A stretch of 64,000 nt of DNA from Nitrospira sp. (GTDB lineage Bacteria > Nitrospirota > Nitrospiria > Nitrospirales > Nitrospiraceae), in assembly GCA_022226935.1 (NCBI GenBank), contig CP092081.1, forward strand, positions 3,554,982 through 3,618,981, given 5' to 3'. The notes under the pieces were generated by a model. It worked only from the letters and a program-made list of their open reading frames with translations. It was not told where the DNA came from and searched no databases. Both the position numbers and the translations under genes were made by a program. Below are positions 26,691-31,986 of this stretch, piece by piece. Position 1 is the stretch's first letter, and each line of letters opens with the position of its first letter.

Positions 26691-26812
26691 AGGGTAATCA
26701 AAATGCCTTTCCAGCAAGGCCGCAGGCGACTCAAACCCGGAGGCGTACCCTTAGGGGTACGTTGAGGAGTTTGTGGAGCTGAGAACGATGCTGGAAGGCA
26801 TTTTCATCATCC
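26691..26812. repeat. Palindromic 3'-end repeat, copy A (full length, 122 bp)
   Basis: Its ends are imperfect inverted repeats of about 25 bases (left AGGGTAATCAAAATGCC, right complement AGGATGATGAAAATGCC). The centre has CAAGGCCGCAGG and a nested palindrome CGTACCCTTAGGGGTACG. The whole could fold as a long branched hairpin. It fills the gap between the ferredoxin gene and moaB, ending 7 bases before the moaB ATG. Related copies are at 27567-27648, 27657-27780, 29426-29506 and 30613-30734. Confidence 0.85.
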
Positions 26813-26819
26813 TGTTACC

Positions 26820-27332
26820 ATGAGCACCCCAAGCCACAAAGAGCACAAACACCACGCCCCCCGCTCGGTCGGTTGCATGATCATCACCTGCAGTGATACC
26901 CGCACACCCGACACCGATACCAGCGGCCAATTGATTCAGAAGCTCCTCACTGAGAAGGGGCATACGATCGCGGCCTACCACCTCCTGAAAGATGAACCGG
27001 CCGAGATCAAAGCGCGGATCACCGAGGGAGTAGGAAACGACTCCGTCCAGGCCATCATTATCAATGGCGGAACAGGAATCTCCCGGCGTGACTCCACGTT
27101 TGAAGCTGTCGACGGGATGCTCGAAAAACGGCTGGATGGATTCGGTGAAGTGTTCCGCTACCTGACCTATCAAGAGATCGGCTCACCGGCCATCATGAGC
27201 CGGGCCACCGCCGGCATCATTAAAGGCCGCGTGCTCTTCTCCACCCCGGGATCCGAAAACGCCGTGCGCCTGGCGATGGAGAAACTCATCCTCCCCGAAC
27301 TCGGTCACCTGGTCAAAGAACTCACGAAATAG
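26820..27332 (+). CDS. moaB: Molybdopterin adenylyltransferase-type protein (MoaB/MogA family)
   Basis: A 170-residue enzyme of molybdenum-cofactor synthesis, which adenylates molybdopterin. It shows ITCSDTRTPDTDTSGQLI, the INGGTGISRRDSTFEAV loop, then GFGEVFRYLTYQEIGSPAIMSRA and PGSENAVRLAMEKLILPEL, close to E. coli MoaB. The first 17 residues are His/Lys-rich and not part of the fold. A repeat element ends 7 bases upstream, so transcription must pass through or start in it. No other Moco gene lies nearby except the MOSC protein at 36727. Confidence 0.93.
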   Translation: MSTPSHKEHKHHAPRSVGCMIITCSDTRTPDTDTSGQLIQKLLTEKGHTIAAYHLLKDEPAEIKARITEGVGNDSVQAIIINGGTGISRRDSTFEAVDGMLEKRLDGFGEVFRYLTYQEIGSPAIMSRATAGIIKGRVLFSTPGSENAVRLAMEKLILPELGHLVKELTK

Positions 27333-27438
27333 TTCGTCGTTAGCATTCAGCAATCAGCCTGCAGCTTTTGGGGTCGCCCAGAACTGCATGCTGCGAGCTG
27401 ATGCTGCTTGTTGCTCGCTAGCGGCTAGTCCCGCCGAG
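27333..27438. repeat. Low-complexity 'CAGC' sequence after moaB
   Basis: Short reiterations of TTCAGCAATCAGC type (for example AGCATTCAGCAATCAGCC) occur here and again at 26650-26682 (AGCTATCAGC). They look like a dispersed low-complexity intergenic repeat, separate from the palindromic element. Confidence 0.45.
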
Positions 27439-27559
27439 GAGATTCGAAATGACTTTCAAGCAGAGCCACAGGTGAAGCACAGCGAGAGCGTACCCGCAGG
27501 AGTGCATTCAGGATTTTGATGAAATGGGAAGGAAACCGGAAGCCGTTTTCTCCAGCCGG
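27439..27559. repeat. Palindromic 3'-end repeat, copy B (degenerate)
   Basis: A weak relative of the family: it keeps TTTCAAGCAGAGCCACAGG and a GAGCGTACCCGCAGGAGTG-like centre, and ends AAGCCGTTTTCTCCAGCC. It lies directly upstream of copies C and D in a tandem array. Confidence 0.55.
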
Positions 27560-27566
27560 TTGATCA

Positions 27567-27648
27567 AGGATGCTCAAAACGGTGTGCCAACCAGGCCGCA
27601 GGAAGCACAGCGATCGAGAACGAAGTTGGAGCCCGTTTTCAGCATCCG
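27567..27648. repeat. Palindromic 3'-end repeat, copy C (short, 82 bp)
   Basis: Ends match as inverted repeats (AGGATGCTCAAAACGG against complement CGGATGCTGAAAACGG). It keeps CAGGCCGCAGG and GAGAACGAAGTTGGAG but lacks the inner GTACCC palindrome. Confidence 0.8.
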
Positions 27649-27656
27649 CTCTATGA

Positions 27657-27780
27657 AGGATGTTCAAAATGGCCGTCCAGCAAGGCCGCAGGCGAAGCAA
27701 AACCGGAGGCGTACCCCTCAGGGGTACGTTGAGGATTTCGATGAGCCGAGAACGCTGCTGGAGGCCATTTTCAACATCCG
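27657..27780. repeat. Palindromic 3'-end repeat, copy D (full length, 124 bp)
   Basis: The best preserved copy. Left AGGATGTTCAAAATGGCC and right complement CGGATGTTGAAAATGGCC pair over about 25 bases with few mismatches, and the centre has GTACCCCTCAGGGGTAC. Its last base is directly before the stop codon of the minus-strand CBS gene (27783-27781). Confidence 0.88.
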
Positions 27781-28215
27781 TTAGTCTTGGCCGATTTTGG
27801 GTTCGGAGTACACCTGCTTATCCGCCAATCTCGATTGCGCGTACCGCTTGTAGTGCATCAACAAATCGCGGACCGACACGACGCCGACGATCGATCCGCC
27901 TTTGGTCACCGCCAGATGGCGCACGCCGAGATCGCCCATCATATCCTGGGCATCATCAACTGCTTGACTGCTTTCGATGGTGCATAGCGGGGAGGTCATC
28001 ACCTGTTCGACGGTCAGCTTGCCCACGTCCTGATTGGTGGCCAATCCTTTCCGAACCAGATCCGTGTCGGTCACGATCCCGACATGGTTCTTCCCCTTCT
28101 TGATCAAGAGGGAACTGACCCGCAAGCTGCGCATCTTCTTCGCCGCACCGCGAATGGAAGTCGTCGGACCAACGCTCTGAGGTTTCTTATTCATGATTTG
28201 CGCAACAGTCGCCAT
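27781..28215 (-). CDS. Two-CBS-domain protein
   Basis: A 144-residue tandem CBS protein, similar in plan to the one at 4179-4571. The first motif ends GIVTDTDLVRKGLAT and the second GVVSVRDLLMHYKRY, followed by a 19-residue tail. It probably binds an adenosyl ligand. It is 50 bases downstream of the alcohol dehydrogenase gene on the same strand, so the pair may be co-transcribed. A palindromic repeat abuts its stop codon. Confidence 0.88.
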   Translation of the reverse strand: MATVAQIMNKKPQSVGPTTSIRGAAKKMRSLRVSSLLIKKGKNHVGIVTDTDLVRKGLATNQDVGKLTVEQVMTSPLCTIESSQAVDDAQDMMGDLGVRHLAVTKGGSIVGVVSVRDLLMHYKRYAQSRLADKQVYSEPKIGQD

Positions 28216-28265
28216 GTCACATACCTTTCTGCCCGTTGGGACAAGAGAGCCGATAATGAAGCTGC

Positions 28266-29297
28266 TTACGAAACAGTCAGCACGATTTTACCAAAAAATT
28301 TCCGATTCAAAAGATATTCTTGCGCGCCTTTGGCCTCAGACAGCGGAAAGGTCCGATCGATCACCGGTCTCAACTTGCCCTCGCCGATGAGATGCGCGGC
28401 TTTCAGCAACTCACTTTGAGATCCCATGTACGAGCCCTTGATCGTCAGCTGCCGCGAATACACATAGCGTAAATCGAGCTTGACCTCCGCACCCGTCGTC
28501 GCGCCGCAGGTGACCAGCCGTCCGCCCTTCGCCAATGAATCGATGCACTGCGTCCAGACCTCCGGGCCGATGTGTTCGATCACCACGTCCACGCCGCGGC
28601 GCTGCGTCAGTTCCCGCACTCGCTGATTGACTTGCTCGCGGCTGTGGATGATGACCTCATCCGCGCCCAGCGCTTTGGCTTTCGGAACTTTGTCATCGCT
28701 CCCGACCGTGGTCAAGACACGCGCGCCGGCCAGCTTGGCCATTTGGATCGCCATGTGGCCCACCCCACTGCCCGCGCCCATGATCAATACGTCGTCGCCG
28801 GGCCGCACCTCCGCTAACCCAAACAACATATGCCAGGCAGTGACGGAGACCAACGGAAAGGCGGCAGCCTGCTCGAAGGACAACGCGCCAGGAATCGGGC
28901 GCACGTTCCGCGCCGGCACCTTGACGTAGTCTGCGTAGCCGCCATGGCACATCGCCCCGATCAAGCCATAGGAGCGGCACATATTGTCGCGACCGGCCAG
29001 ACATTGCTCGCACTTCCCGCATCCCACACCGGGAGACACGTAGATCCGCTCTCCCACGGCCACCCCGTCCACCTGTGAGCCGATCTGGTGCACCACGCCG
29101 GCGATGTCCGAACCGAGGATGTGCGGGAGCGGCATCGGATAGGCCGGACTCCCCTGCCGGATCCAGATATCCAGATGATTCAACGCGCAGGCTTTCACCT
29201 GCACAAGGACTTCGTCGACGCCGATCGTGGGCATCGGCATCTCCTGGTATTGCAATTTCCCGGGCCCGCCATGCTCATGAAATACGACCGCATTCAT
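28266..29297 (-). CDS. Zinc-type alcohol dehydrogenase / quinone oxidoreductase family protein
   Basis: A 343-residue medium-chain dehydrogenase. The catalytic domain has the structural zinc cysteines in GCGKCEQCLAGRDNMC. The nucleotide-binding domain has VLIMGAGSGVGHMAIQMAKLAGA near residue 170. Substrate is unknown; related proteins act on quinones, enals or alcohols. Its relative position suggests co-transcription with the CBS gene downstream. The start at 29297 follows AGGTGTT, a modest ribosome site. Confidence 0.88.
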   Translation of the reverse strand: MNAVVFHEHGGPGKLQYQEMPMPTIGVDEVLVQVKACALNHLDIWIRQGSPAYPMPLPHILGSDIAGVVHQIGSQVDGVAVGERIYVSPGVGCGKCEQCLAGRDNMCRSYGLIGAMCHGGYADYVKVPARNVRPIPGALSFEQAAAFPLVSVTAWHMLFGLAEVRPGDDVLIMGAGSGVGHMAIQMAKLAGARVLTTVGSDDKVPKAKALGADEVIIHSREQVNQRVRELTQRRGVDVVIEHIGPEVWTQCIDSLAKGGRLVTCGATTGAEVKLDLRYVYSRQLTIKGSYMGSQSELLKAAHLIGEGKLRPVIDRTFPLSEAKGAQEYLLNRKFFGKIVLTVS

Positions 29298-29425
29298 AAC
29301 ACCTCAGTATGACAAAACCGTGTTGAGTGGTGAGTCTTGAATTCCCGGAGACGAAGCGCGTAGCTCTCAATGCATTTCCATCGCACAACTCATGACTACA
29401 TGTTCTGCCAAGCCCCATTCTTCAC

Positions 29426-29506
29426 AGGATGATCAAAACGCCATGCCACCAGGCCGCAGGGAGTCGTACGACTGAGAACGCCGTGAGATGGCGCTTTCAT
29501 CATCCT
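29426..29506. repeat. Palindromic 3'-end repeat, copy E (short, 81 bp)
   Basis: Ends AGGATGATCAAAACGCCAT and complement AGGATGATGAAAGCGCCAT pair well. CAGGCCGCAGG and GAGAACGCCG are kept, and the inner part is reduced to GTCGTACGAC. It ends one base before the stop codon of the phzF-like gene (29510-29508). Confidence 0.82.
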
Positions 29507-29507
29507 G

Positions 29508-30437
29508 CTAGAAACTGAGCACGCCTTCCACAACCATCACCGCCTCTCCGCCAACCATCACCCCTTGGATCGCGTCGTCGTCGGAGTTTACCTGAATCAG
29601 AATACGGGACGGGCGATCGATCTCGTACCCCTGTTCAGCGGTAATCTCGGTCTCCGGCCTGATATCCACGACGCCATGTTGCACGAGATAGGCGCCCAAC
29701 GCGCCACTGGCGCTGCCGGTCGCCGGATCTTCCACGATGCCGATCAATGGCGCGAACATACGGGTGTGCACACTCGAAGACTGTTCAACCGTCATCGTGC
29801 TGAAGACCATCATGCCATTGGCGCCATACTGTTGGGACAACTCGGCGATGGCCGCCACATCGGGCACAATCGAACGCACCGCCGTCAGCGTGCGCACCGG
29901 CACGATGATGACCGGAAGCCCCGTCGAGACCACCTGCACGGGAAAGCGGCTTTCCGTGATCGCAGACTTGGTGATACCCAGAGAGCGGGCGATGGCGAAC
30001 AACGCCTCCGGCTCCTCGATCACATCCAAAAACTCCGGGCTCGGTTGCGCCATGACCACCCGTTCGATCACGCCGTCATGCGAGTGGATATCGACGGGAA
30101 ACAACCCCAAATTACATTCCTGCAGCACCCGCGTCACCGGCTCCCGGAGCGCAAGACGGTCCAATGTCCCCAACACGAAAAAGGTCCCGATGACCGGATG
30201 GCCGGCGAAGGGAATTTCCTGCGTCGGCGTGAAAATGCGCATCTTGACGACGGCGGCCTGGTCAGTGGGCGGAAACACAAATACGGTTTCGGAGAGATTC
30301 ATCTCGCGAGCAATCTGCTGCAATTCAACGTCGGTCAACCCATCTGCGTCGGGAAACACCGCCACCGGGTTCCCGCCGAAGGGTTCATCGGTGAAGACGT
30401 CGGCTTGATAAAACTGCAATCGCCGTTGCCCGGCCAT
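29508..30437 (-). CDS. PhzF-family isomerase
   Basis: A 309-residue protein with the PhzF/diaminopimelate-epimerase-like two-domain fold. Marks are FYQADVFTDEPFGGNPVAVFPDADGL, NLSETVFVFPP, IFTPTQEIPFAGHPVIGT and EDPATGSASGALGAYL. Phenazine PhzF isomerises a dihydro-anthranilate, but most bacterial homologues are stand-alone and of unknown substrate; no phenazine genes are here. The name should be taken as family only. It ends against repeat copy E. Confidence 0.9.
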   Translation of the reverse strand: MAGQRRLQFYQADVFTDEPFGGNPVAVFPDADGLTDVELQQIAREMNLSETVFVFPPTDQAAVVKMRIFTPTQEIPFAGHPVIGTFFVLGTLDRLALREPVTRVLQECNLGLFPVDIHSHDGVIERVVMAQPSPEFLDVIEEPEALFAIARSLGITKSAITESRFPVQVVSTGLPVIIVPVRTLTAVRSIVPDVAAIAELSQQYGANGMMVFSTMTVEQSSSVHTRMFAPLIGIVEDPATGSASGALGAYLVQHGVVDIRPETEITAEQGYEIDRPSRILIQVNSDDDAIQGVMVGGEAVMVVEGVLSF

Positions 30438-30507
30438 ACATTCCTCGAGAAGATGCTGGCGGCATGTTGCCCCGAGTCAGTATTTTTTGCAAGAGGCGAT
30501 GGAGCTA

Positions 30508-30535
30508 TAAGAAGGTAAGAATAAGAAGGTAAGAA
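30508..30535. repeat. Perfect 14-bp tandem duplication
   Basis: TAAGAAGGTAAGAA occurs twice head to tail (30508-30521 and 30522-30535), just upstream of the phzF-like start on the other side of a short gap. It could be a slippage product. Confidence 0.7.
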
Positions 30536-30612
30536 TTTGGGAGGCGCACTGTTCAGCAGACAGCCGGACAGTGCGTAGAACGGGCGCTGATCTATGACAA
30601 TCTGTGATTCAC

Positions 30613-30734
30613 AGGCTGGTCAAAATGGCATGTGCCAAGGCCGCAGGGAGGGTGATGACTGAGGCGTACCCTTGGGGTACGTTGAGGATTGTGGCGAGCC
30701 GAGAACGAAGTTGGAGGTCGTTTTCACGAGCCGA
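30613..30734. repeat. Palindromic 3'-end repeat, copy F (full length, 122 bp)
   Basis: AGGCTGGTCAAAATGGCATG at the left and complement CGGCTCGTGAAAACGACC at the right. The inner GTACCCTTGGGGTAC palindrome and GAGCCGAGAACG are kept. Its right arm overlaps the last four codons of the radical SAM gene, so the stop TGA (30726-30724) lies inside the repeat. Confidence 0.83.
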
Positions 30735-31986
30735 CTAATACGGGGCGGGGGATGGCCTCATATGCACCCCTCAACGGATGGTTGAGGTATTGCTCGACGT
30801 AGTTCTGCAGCGAGCCATGCCGGTAGAGCTGTTGATTGGCGAAGCGGGTGTCGATCTTGTGCAATACTTTCACGCGCACACCGGTCTTCTTGGTGAACTG
30901 CTCCAGGCTCACGCCGGTAATATCGGTATAGGGACCGCGCCCCGACTGCATGATGCATTTCGGCACGTGGATGACTTTTTCCTTCGTCAGCCGCCGCGTG
31001 ATATCATCGAACGTCAGCAGCACCGTGCAATCCGAATCACCGCTGAGCAAGGCATTGGGCACATAGAGAAACTTCGCGCGATTCTTCCGGAACATGGTGA
31101 GGATCTTGTGAACACTCCCCGCCATCACCACCGTGTCTTTCTTTTCCAATTCCAACGCATCGAATAGGCTCACGATGCGCCGGCGGCTCAAGAACGCCGT
31201 GGTATACGACTCCGTATGAATGGTCTGCAGATTCGGTAAGCCCAAGTGATAGATTCGCGTCGCTTCATCCGGCAGGAACTTCCGGCCCTGTCGCATGAGC
31301 GAAGCCGTCTCTTCCTTCAGCCCACGCACCGGGGTGAGCGTTCCCATCCACAACACACATTGTTGATTGATCGCGGAAATCGTCGCCGCATCCTTCGACA
31401 TCGTATGCTGGTCGAAGGCGTAAAAGTTGGCGGACGACACGGCCGGTCCATCCAATACCTTCATGAGATGTTTGATGGACGGCGCATGCGGCATCAACCG
31501 CTGCCGATAGTCGCTCAGCGTGATGACCGACAACTCGAAATTGATTCGGCCCGGATACTGTGCCGCCAGTTGATGGATCTTCGGCACGTGCACAAAGCCG
31601 ACGGTAAAAAACTGAATGCTCTTGTCGGTGTACTTGAGAAAATCTTCCACCCACTCCATCGCCTTGGGATGGAGAAACAGATCGGTCCATTCCATGAACT
31701 CGTTCCCGCCAAGACACCAGAACTGCGTCGGGTCGGTCGGTTTCCGGCTGATGTACTCGAGGATGAACTTCCAATCCTCGTCACTGGTCTTGGGTGGATC
31801 GAGCGTTTCGCGGTAGGAATGGTCGAGCTCGTAGCAAAACTCGCATTTGACCGGGCAGTCACGGCCGAGACTTAAGGGAATTTTCCCCGCGTCCATTTCC
31901 CTGATGAGCACCTGCCGATAGTCGGTGCGATCCTTGAAGATCGGGGTCGGTTGAAAAATCGGAAGGGTTGTAGGCACGGGTGACAT
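30724..31986 (-). CDS. Radical SAM protein of unknown function
   Basis: A 420-residue protein with a classical CX3CX2C cluster motif (C44, C48, C51 in DCPVKCEFCYE). No B12 domain precedes it. The partial barrel runs to about residue 230, with TVGFVHVPKI and FELSVITLSDYRQRL. The C-terminal 190 residues are not recognised. It is the downstream member of a block of three minus-strand radical SAM genes. The stop codon is provided by a palindromic repeat, which suggests that the repeat's arrival may have set the current C-terminus. Confidence 0.85.
   Translation of the reverse strand: MSPVPTTLPIFQPTPIFKDRTDYRQVLIREMDAGKIPLSLGRDCPVKCEFCYELDHSYRETLDPPKTSDEDWKFILEYISRKPTDPTQFWCLGGNEFMEWTDLFLHPKAMEWVEDFLKYTDKSIQFFTVGFVHVPKIHQLAAQYPGRINFELSVITLSDYRQRLMPHAPSIKHLMKVLDGPAVSSANFYAFDQHTMSKDAATISAINQQCVLWMGTLTPVRGLKEETASLMRQGRKFLPDEATRIYHLGLPNLQTIHTESYTTAFLSRRRIVSLFDALELEKKDTVVMAGSVHKILTMFRKNRAKFLYVPNALLSGDSDCTVLLTFDDITRRLTKEKVIHVPKCIMQSGRGPYTDITGVSLEQFTKKTGVRVKVLHKIDTRFANQQLYRHGSLQNYVEQYLNHPLRGAYEAIPRPVLVGS

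Follow-up and report, generated by a model that had tools for sequence, protein, structure and literature searches.

The window analysed here, a stretch of 64,000 nucleotides from a Nitrospira genome, carries several copies of a hairpin-forming repeat. The Nitrospira copies of this repeat are probably non-autonomous mobile hairpins that belong to a trans-phylum superfamily including the enterobacterial ERIC. The superfamily is a previously unrecognised one, and within a type of element already known, the Nitrospira element forms a new branch that is deep and widespread. ERIC-PCR has been in use for decades, and ERIC is regarded as a gamma-proteobacterial repeat; we know of no enzyme that mobilises it. 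With distant relatives across phyla in which the inner core, the folded strand and the stop-codon position are all conserved, two questions about ERIC, what mobilises it and why it lies behind stops, become addressable by comparative genomics.

A hairpin family in the window and the genus

A covariance model built from 41 long-form copies (R1) matched five positions in the window, all on the + strand and at E < 1e-8. Copies A (26692..26812, 119 bits), D (27658..27779, 127.7 bits) and F (30614..30732, 100 bits) are long forms, and copies C (27568..27647, 67.7 bits) and E (29427..29505, 49.5 bits) are short forms. Four of them folded far better than shuffled sequences (A, z = −5.9; C, −2.8; D, −6.2; E, −4.0), and F was less clear (z = −1.6). 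A further + strand stretch with the layout of a long form, copy B (27438..27557), reached a score of 22 bits, correctly registered, in a search of that stretch alone. Its folding was no better than that of shuffles, and it was therefore read as a decayed copy. The first-pass annotation had grouped five clear copies and a degenerate B into one family, and had separated long forms from short forms without the inner GTACCC palindrome; the model matches bear out this grouping, and both forms are real. The common core it described applies to part of the family, as an exact copy of the 12-mer CAAGGCCGCAGG is found in A, D and F alone, and C and E have CCAGGCCGCAGG at this place.

The copies in the window lie close to genes and to one another. 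C and D are separated by 10 nt. On its 3′ side D ends 1 nt short of the stop codon of a CBS-domain gene (27781-28215, − strand), and F includes the stop of a radical-SAM-like gene (30724-31986, − strand), both as previously described. The distance from the 3′ end of E to the stop of a phzF-like gene (29508-30437, − strand) is 2 nt rather than 1 nt. Copy A ends 7 nt ahead of the ATG (26820) of a + strand ORF.

Confinement to the window would have spoken against a dispersed element; instead, R1 matched the 4.23 Mb source genome 78 times at E ≤ 0.1. Stretches of this genome searched on both strands contained 74 matches at E < 1e-3, 31 on the + strand and 43 on the − strand, and the single orientation noted earlier is thus a property of the window and not of the genome. 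Full-length copies measure 118–123 bp and short forms about 80 bp, and the element ends in CAGGATG..CATCCTG. A survey of 29 genomes of the genus found 32–108 copies in 28 of them, with the highest number, 108, in G023, and one copy in the remaining genome, G004. Dispersed across the genome and tied to gene ends, the copies support the MITE-like reading proposed at first pass. The repeat had no match to any curated structured RNA family in Rfam.

Some copies in the source genome are clustered (205362-206315 and 876860-886305), in places following one another head to tail at a spacing of about 130 bp. Longer copies were also observed. Those of the source genome, at 547925-548092, 2906121-2906284 and 2824730-2824914, have an inner insert; others lie at loci L106, L109, L119, L175 and L184, and in all of these but L119 a different repeat, containing ACCCGCCCACCCC..GCGCGCCGAGACGCGCC, takes the place of the left arm.

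The predicted hairpin is supported by covariation. Pairing holds for 94% of the cells of alignment A2, and two-sided changes occur in 144 cells versus 40 in shuffles. The covariation score was 0.362, compared with 0.150 ± 0.009 for shuffled alignments and at most 0.099 for slid partners. The outer stem keeps a C.C mismatch, and conservation extends to two internal loops, AAGGCCGCA / GAGAACG and GGAGG / TTGAGG. Stems on the + strand favour G.T over A.C, by 109 to 63 in source-genome copies and by 18 columns to 4. The + strand also had the lower folding energy in 58/73 source-genome copies (one tie excluded), in 56/58 outgroup copies and in all 14 ERICs. Shuffled source-genome copies lean to the + strand as well (51/74), and base composition therefore contributes to the folding advantage in this genome. 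We read the + strand as the strand whose fold is kept.

Placement behind stop codons

Nitrospira genes were called with our own simple codon-usage caller. An opposite-strand gene lies on the 3′ side of 59/74 copies, and in 47/74 the element's 3′ end is within 9 nt of the opposite-strand stop, mostly at 1–4 nt and most often at 1, 2 or 4 nt. When copies were redistributed at random within their gaps and oriented at random, 5.5 such cases were expected versus 46 of 73 seen, and the maximum in 100,000 simulations was 16. The 5′ end behaves differently: none of 34 facing stops lay within 8 nt of it. The placement is thus biased by orientation, with 47 stops at the 3′ end versus 0 at the 5′ end among the 74 copies. 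The same bias was found at other Nitrospirota loci, where 82 copies have 37 stops at the 3′ end versus 5 at the 5′ end. Together with the survey of the 29 genomes, these counts confirm and sharpen the link to gene ends suggested at first pass; the strand specificity of placement, the spread over phyla and the kinship with ERIC are new to the present analysis.

About one third of the copies adjoin no stop. When the gene downstream of the 3′ end is on the same strand, its start is often 4–19 nt away, and at two loci a tRNA-Leu gene lies close to the 3′ end (L114:7130-7213 and L173:1729-1812). The 3′ end therefore tends to face a gene boundary.

The stops adjoined are rich in TAG and poor in TGA (TAG 24, TAA 12 and TGA 8, versus 48, 63 and 85 elsewhere; p = 2e-4). 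The trinucleotide YTA occurs at the 3′ flank with no mirror at the 5′ flank, and it is also present at the 3′ end of 7/27 non-adjoining copies. The stop-codon bias and the YTA of these non-adjoining copies together indicate a TA-containing target. On this view an enzyme supplied in trans would insert the element wherever a site contains TA; a copy that disrupted a coding or start region would be lost, and those behind stops would remain.

Alternatively, the position might not result from a loosely defined TA target followed by selection; insertion might instead be steered to stops by a dedicated mechanism, either a recombinase that reads the stop codon or YTA or a link between insertion and translation termination. 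The tight, one-sided spacing of 1–4 nt at all three stop codons favours such steering, as do the room available elsewhere in the same gaps and the recurrence of the pattern in several phyla. We nevertheless regard it as unlikely: the preference for TAG and TAA over TGA fits a TA-type target, YTA is found at copies away from stops too, and elements of Vampirovibrio and of G053 adjoin stops less often.

A position directly behind stops would also suit a non-mobile transcription terminator or transcript-end element that is selected there, and in alignment A2 either strand shows a GC-rich stem and, after it, TTTT. However, a scan for consensus intrinsic terminators found 3 sites versus 5.7 in shuffles, with a single weak site within the copies, in copy A, so that the proposed use as a transcript end is not upheld. 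The better-folding strand is moreover the antisense one. Presence or absence at orthologous sites, copy numbers ranging from 1 to 108 between genomes, and tandem copies (C–D and the 205–206 kb cluster) all fit mobility, and we consider a terminator very unlikely.

Relatives in other phyla and kinship with ERIC

The search across phyla used a pattern of the inner core only. Many of the matches listed come from Nitrospirota, and the list further includes Desulfuromonadales, Rokubacteria, Methylomirabilota, Vampirovibrio/Melainabacteria, Clostridia and other groups; 77% of the matches have features lying outside the search pattern, versus 4% of control positions. Counted over whole genomes, many of the genomes concerned have 5–25 cores, and a reversed control pattern gave zero. 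Multiple copies with the same inner core are present in desulfuromonadial (Desulfuromonadia), rokubacterial, Vampirovibrio-like and clostridial genomes. The copies within one genome have common boundaries and outer arms, and the arms differ between taxa. Outside Nitrospirota several records come from metagenome bins, but misbinning is made less likely by the taxon-specific arms and by the presence of more than one copy per genome. Some single matches outside Nitrospirota, in Omnitrophota, Actinomycetes and Armatimonadetes, may be chance matches to the pattern. Adjacency to stops recurs among these relatives, strongly in Rokubacteria (G047) and G054 and more weakly in Vampirovibrio and G053. 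In a plasmid copy from Trichlorobacter lovleyi, the 3′ end falls on the stop annotated for a DUF2149 gene.

Kinship with ERIC was detected in both directions with covariance models, whose E-values for R2 and R3 are rough. R2 was built from 23 copies and contains neither Nitrospira-genus nor enterobacterial sequences. It recovered copies A, D and F with E-values around 1e-11 (D, 2e-11; F, 7e-11), and in enterobacterial loci totalling 43.7 kb the seven best matches were ERICs (E from 7e-5 to 1.2) in exact register and strand. Conversely, R3, a model of 14 ERIC copies that are not independent of each other, was run on 36 outgroup loci, where its top 14 matches, from E = 0.001, were full-length elements. 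In the window its best match was D, end to end (27657-27780, E = 0.05), and A ranked third. The ERIC consensus matches E. coli ERICs at 91%.

The Nitrospira element resembles ERIC (also named IRU or RU-1) in several respects. ERIC is a non-coding imperfect palindrome of about 120–127 bp; with a length near 127 bp it forms one long imperfect hairpin, comparable with the Nitrospira element of 118–123 nt plus CA/TG ends. The two have the same inner layout, AAGGCGGCAAG .. TAC-loop-GTA .. GCCAACG, and the same better-folding strand, and both place the 3′ end behind stops in the same orientation. ERICs lie 0–6 nt behind the annotated stops of ybhI, potI, speB, a transaminase gene and a Rahnella solute-binding gene. 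The stop-adjoining ERICs match the Nitrospira orientation, and the other ERICs examined do not adjoin stops. In Yersinia, ERICs reportedly lie next to stops with an orientation bias, a finding ascribed to De Gregorio et al. (2005).

The two also differ. ERIC ends in TATACCC..GGGTATA whereas the Nitrospira element ends in CAGGATG..CATCCTG, and the Nitrospira element, unlike ERIC, has a short form without the inner hairpin. ERIC duplicates TA on insertion; no target duplication could be read in Nitrospira from several aligned orthologous gaps, which are too diverged or, at L399 and L401, may hold a remnant of the element. ERIC has been recorded in Enterobacteriaceae and Vibrionaceae (PMC10969869). 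The Nitrospira element, in contrast, occurs in Nitrospirota and its relatives in other phyla, and because these hosts lie outside the two families, it is classed as a relative of ERIC and not as ERIC.

The likeness to ERIC and to the elements of other phyla could instead reflect convergence of palindromes, the Nitrospira copies being a MITE restricted to Nitrospira and trimmed from a local insertion sequence. The variation of outer arms between taxa is in line with this, as is the lack of BLAST-level similarity to ERIC, and searches of phages and plasmids with copy D returned no match. Against it, the inner sequence is shared beyond the search pattern, the covariance models match reciprocally in exact register, and length, fold polarity and stop geometry are all common with ERIC; the genome moreover lacks Y1 and DDE_3 transposase domains. 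We consider such a local origin quite unlikely. The relation to ERIC is significant at the profile level only, and each score by itself is modest. Homology is nevertheless the better reading when the scores are weighed together with register, strand, length, the reciprocity of the matches and the placement common to both elements.

A broader proposal goes beyond this homology: ERIC would be one branch of a bacteria-wide hairpin family, and a widely shared enzyme would target the ends of reading frames in fixed orientation, with stops as the true target and not a by-product of selection. To us this is a speculative minority view.

Mobility and consequences for transcripts

Comparison of orthologous gaps suggests gain or loss of the element. 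At the 2656 kb locus it is present between a stop and the next start in the source genome and in L361, L362 and L363, and only a few bases occupy that spacer in L365, L366, L367 and L372.

Dispersed extragenic palindromes near gene ends are also known as REP/BIME elements, which RAYT (Y1) transposases spread (PMC3733652, PMC2817692). The Nitrospira repeat shares its dispersal and its frequent proximity to stops with them, and a GTAG REP is often the source of a TAG stop (PMC3733652). It is, however, three to five times longer (118–123 bp versus 20–40 bp), and the GTAG/CGTC tag is absent from its consensus (PMC3733652). Y1_Tnp had no match in the source genome despite its 74 copies at E < 1e-3, and control genomes were positive. 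The REP-type label given at first pass is accordingly not supported, and spread by a RAYT is extremely improbable; for the source genome that reading is already refuted unless a lost or unrecognised RAYT exists.

RUP and Correia/NEMIS elements provide another parallel, with lengths of about 100–150 bp, terminal inverted repeats, TA termini and no transposase gene (PMC2229807). The ends of RUP match IS630-Spn1, whereas the Nitrospira genome is without DDE_3. An IS630-derived MITE was thus rejected, as the DDE_3 (IS630-type) domain had 0 matches in the source genome. With neither Y1 nor DDE_3 domains, no mobilising enzyme was found there. Resemblance to integron attC sites, which also concerns a hairpin behind genes with the antisense strand folded, was considered as well. 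The attC candidate was set aside, as the repeat has no AAC/GTT core boxes and forms no arrays.

If the Nitrospira copies are mobile hairpins related to ERIC, as we favour, their position may affect the adjoining transcripts. The mRNA of an adjoining gene would carry the weaker-folding strand, 1–4 nt past the stop and within the footprint of the terminating ribosome. Hairpin formation under the control of that ribosome would adjust transcript stability, as proposed for Yersinia ERIC, which destabilises mRNA depending on its orientation (PMC2229807, PMC10969869). An effect of the Nitrospira element on mRNA stability is inferred by analogy.

G004 belongs to the same genus, is a single contig and 99% complete, and has one R1 match at E ≤ 1e-6. 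Set against the 28 other genomes of the genus, it offers a natural contrast for the mobiliser search: genomes with 100 copies can be compared with this near relative for a gene that tracks the element. At two loci orthologous to the source 3195546 locus (L399 and L401, in G004 and G007), the element-free gap contains TTGAGCATTCGATTA. This sequence resembles an element end, and the gap may be the remnant of a deletion rather than an empty site.
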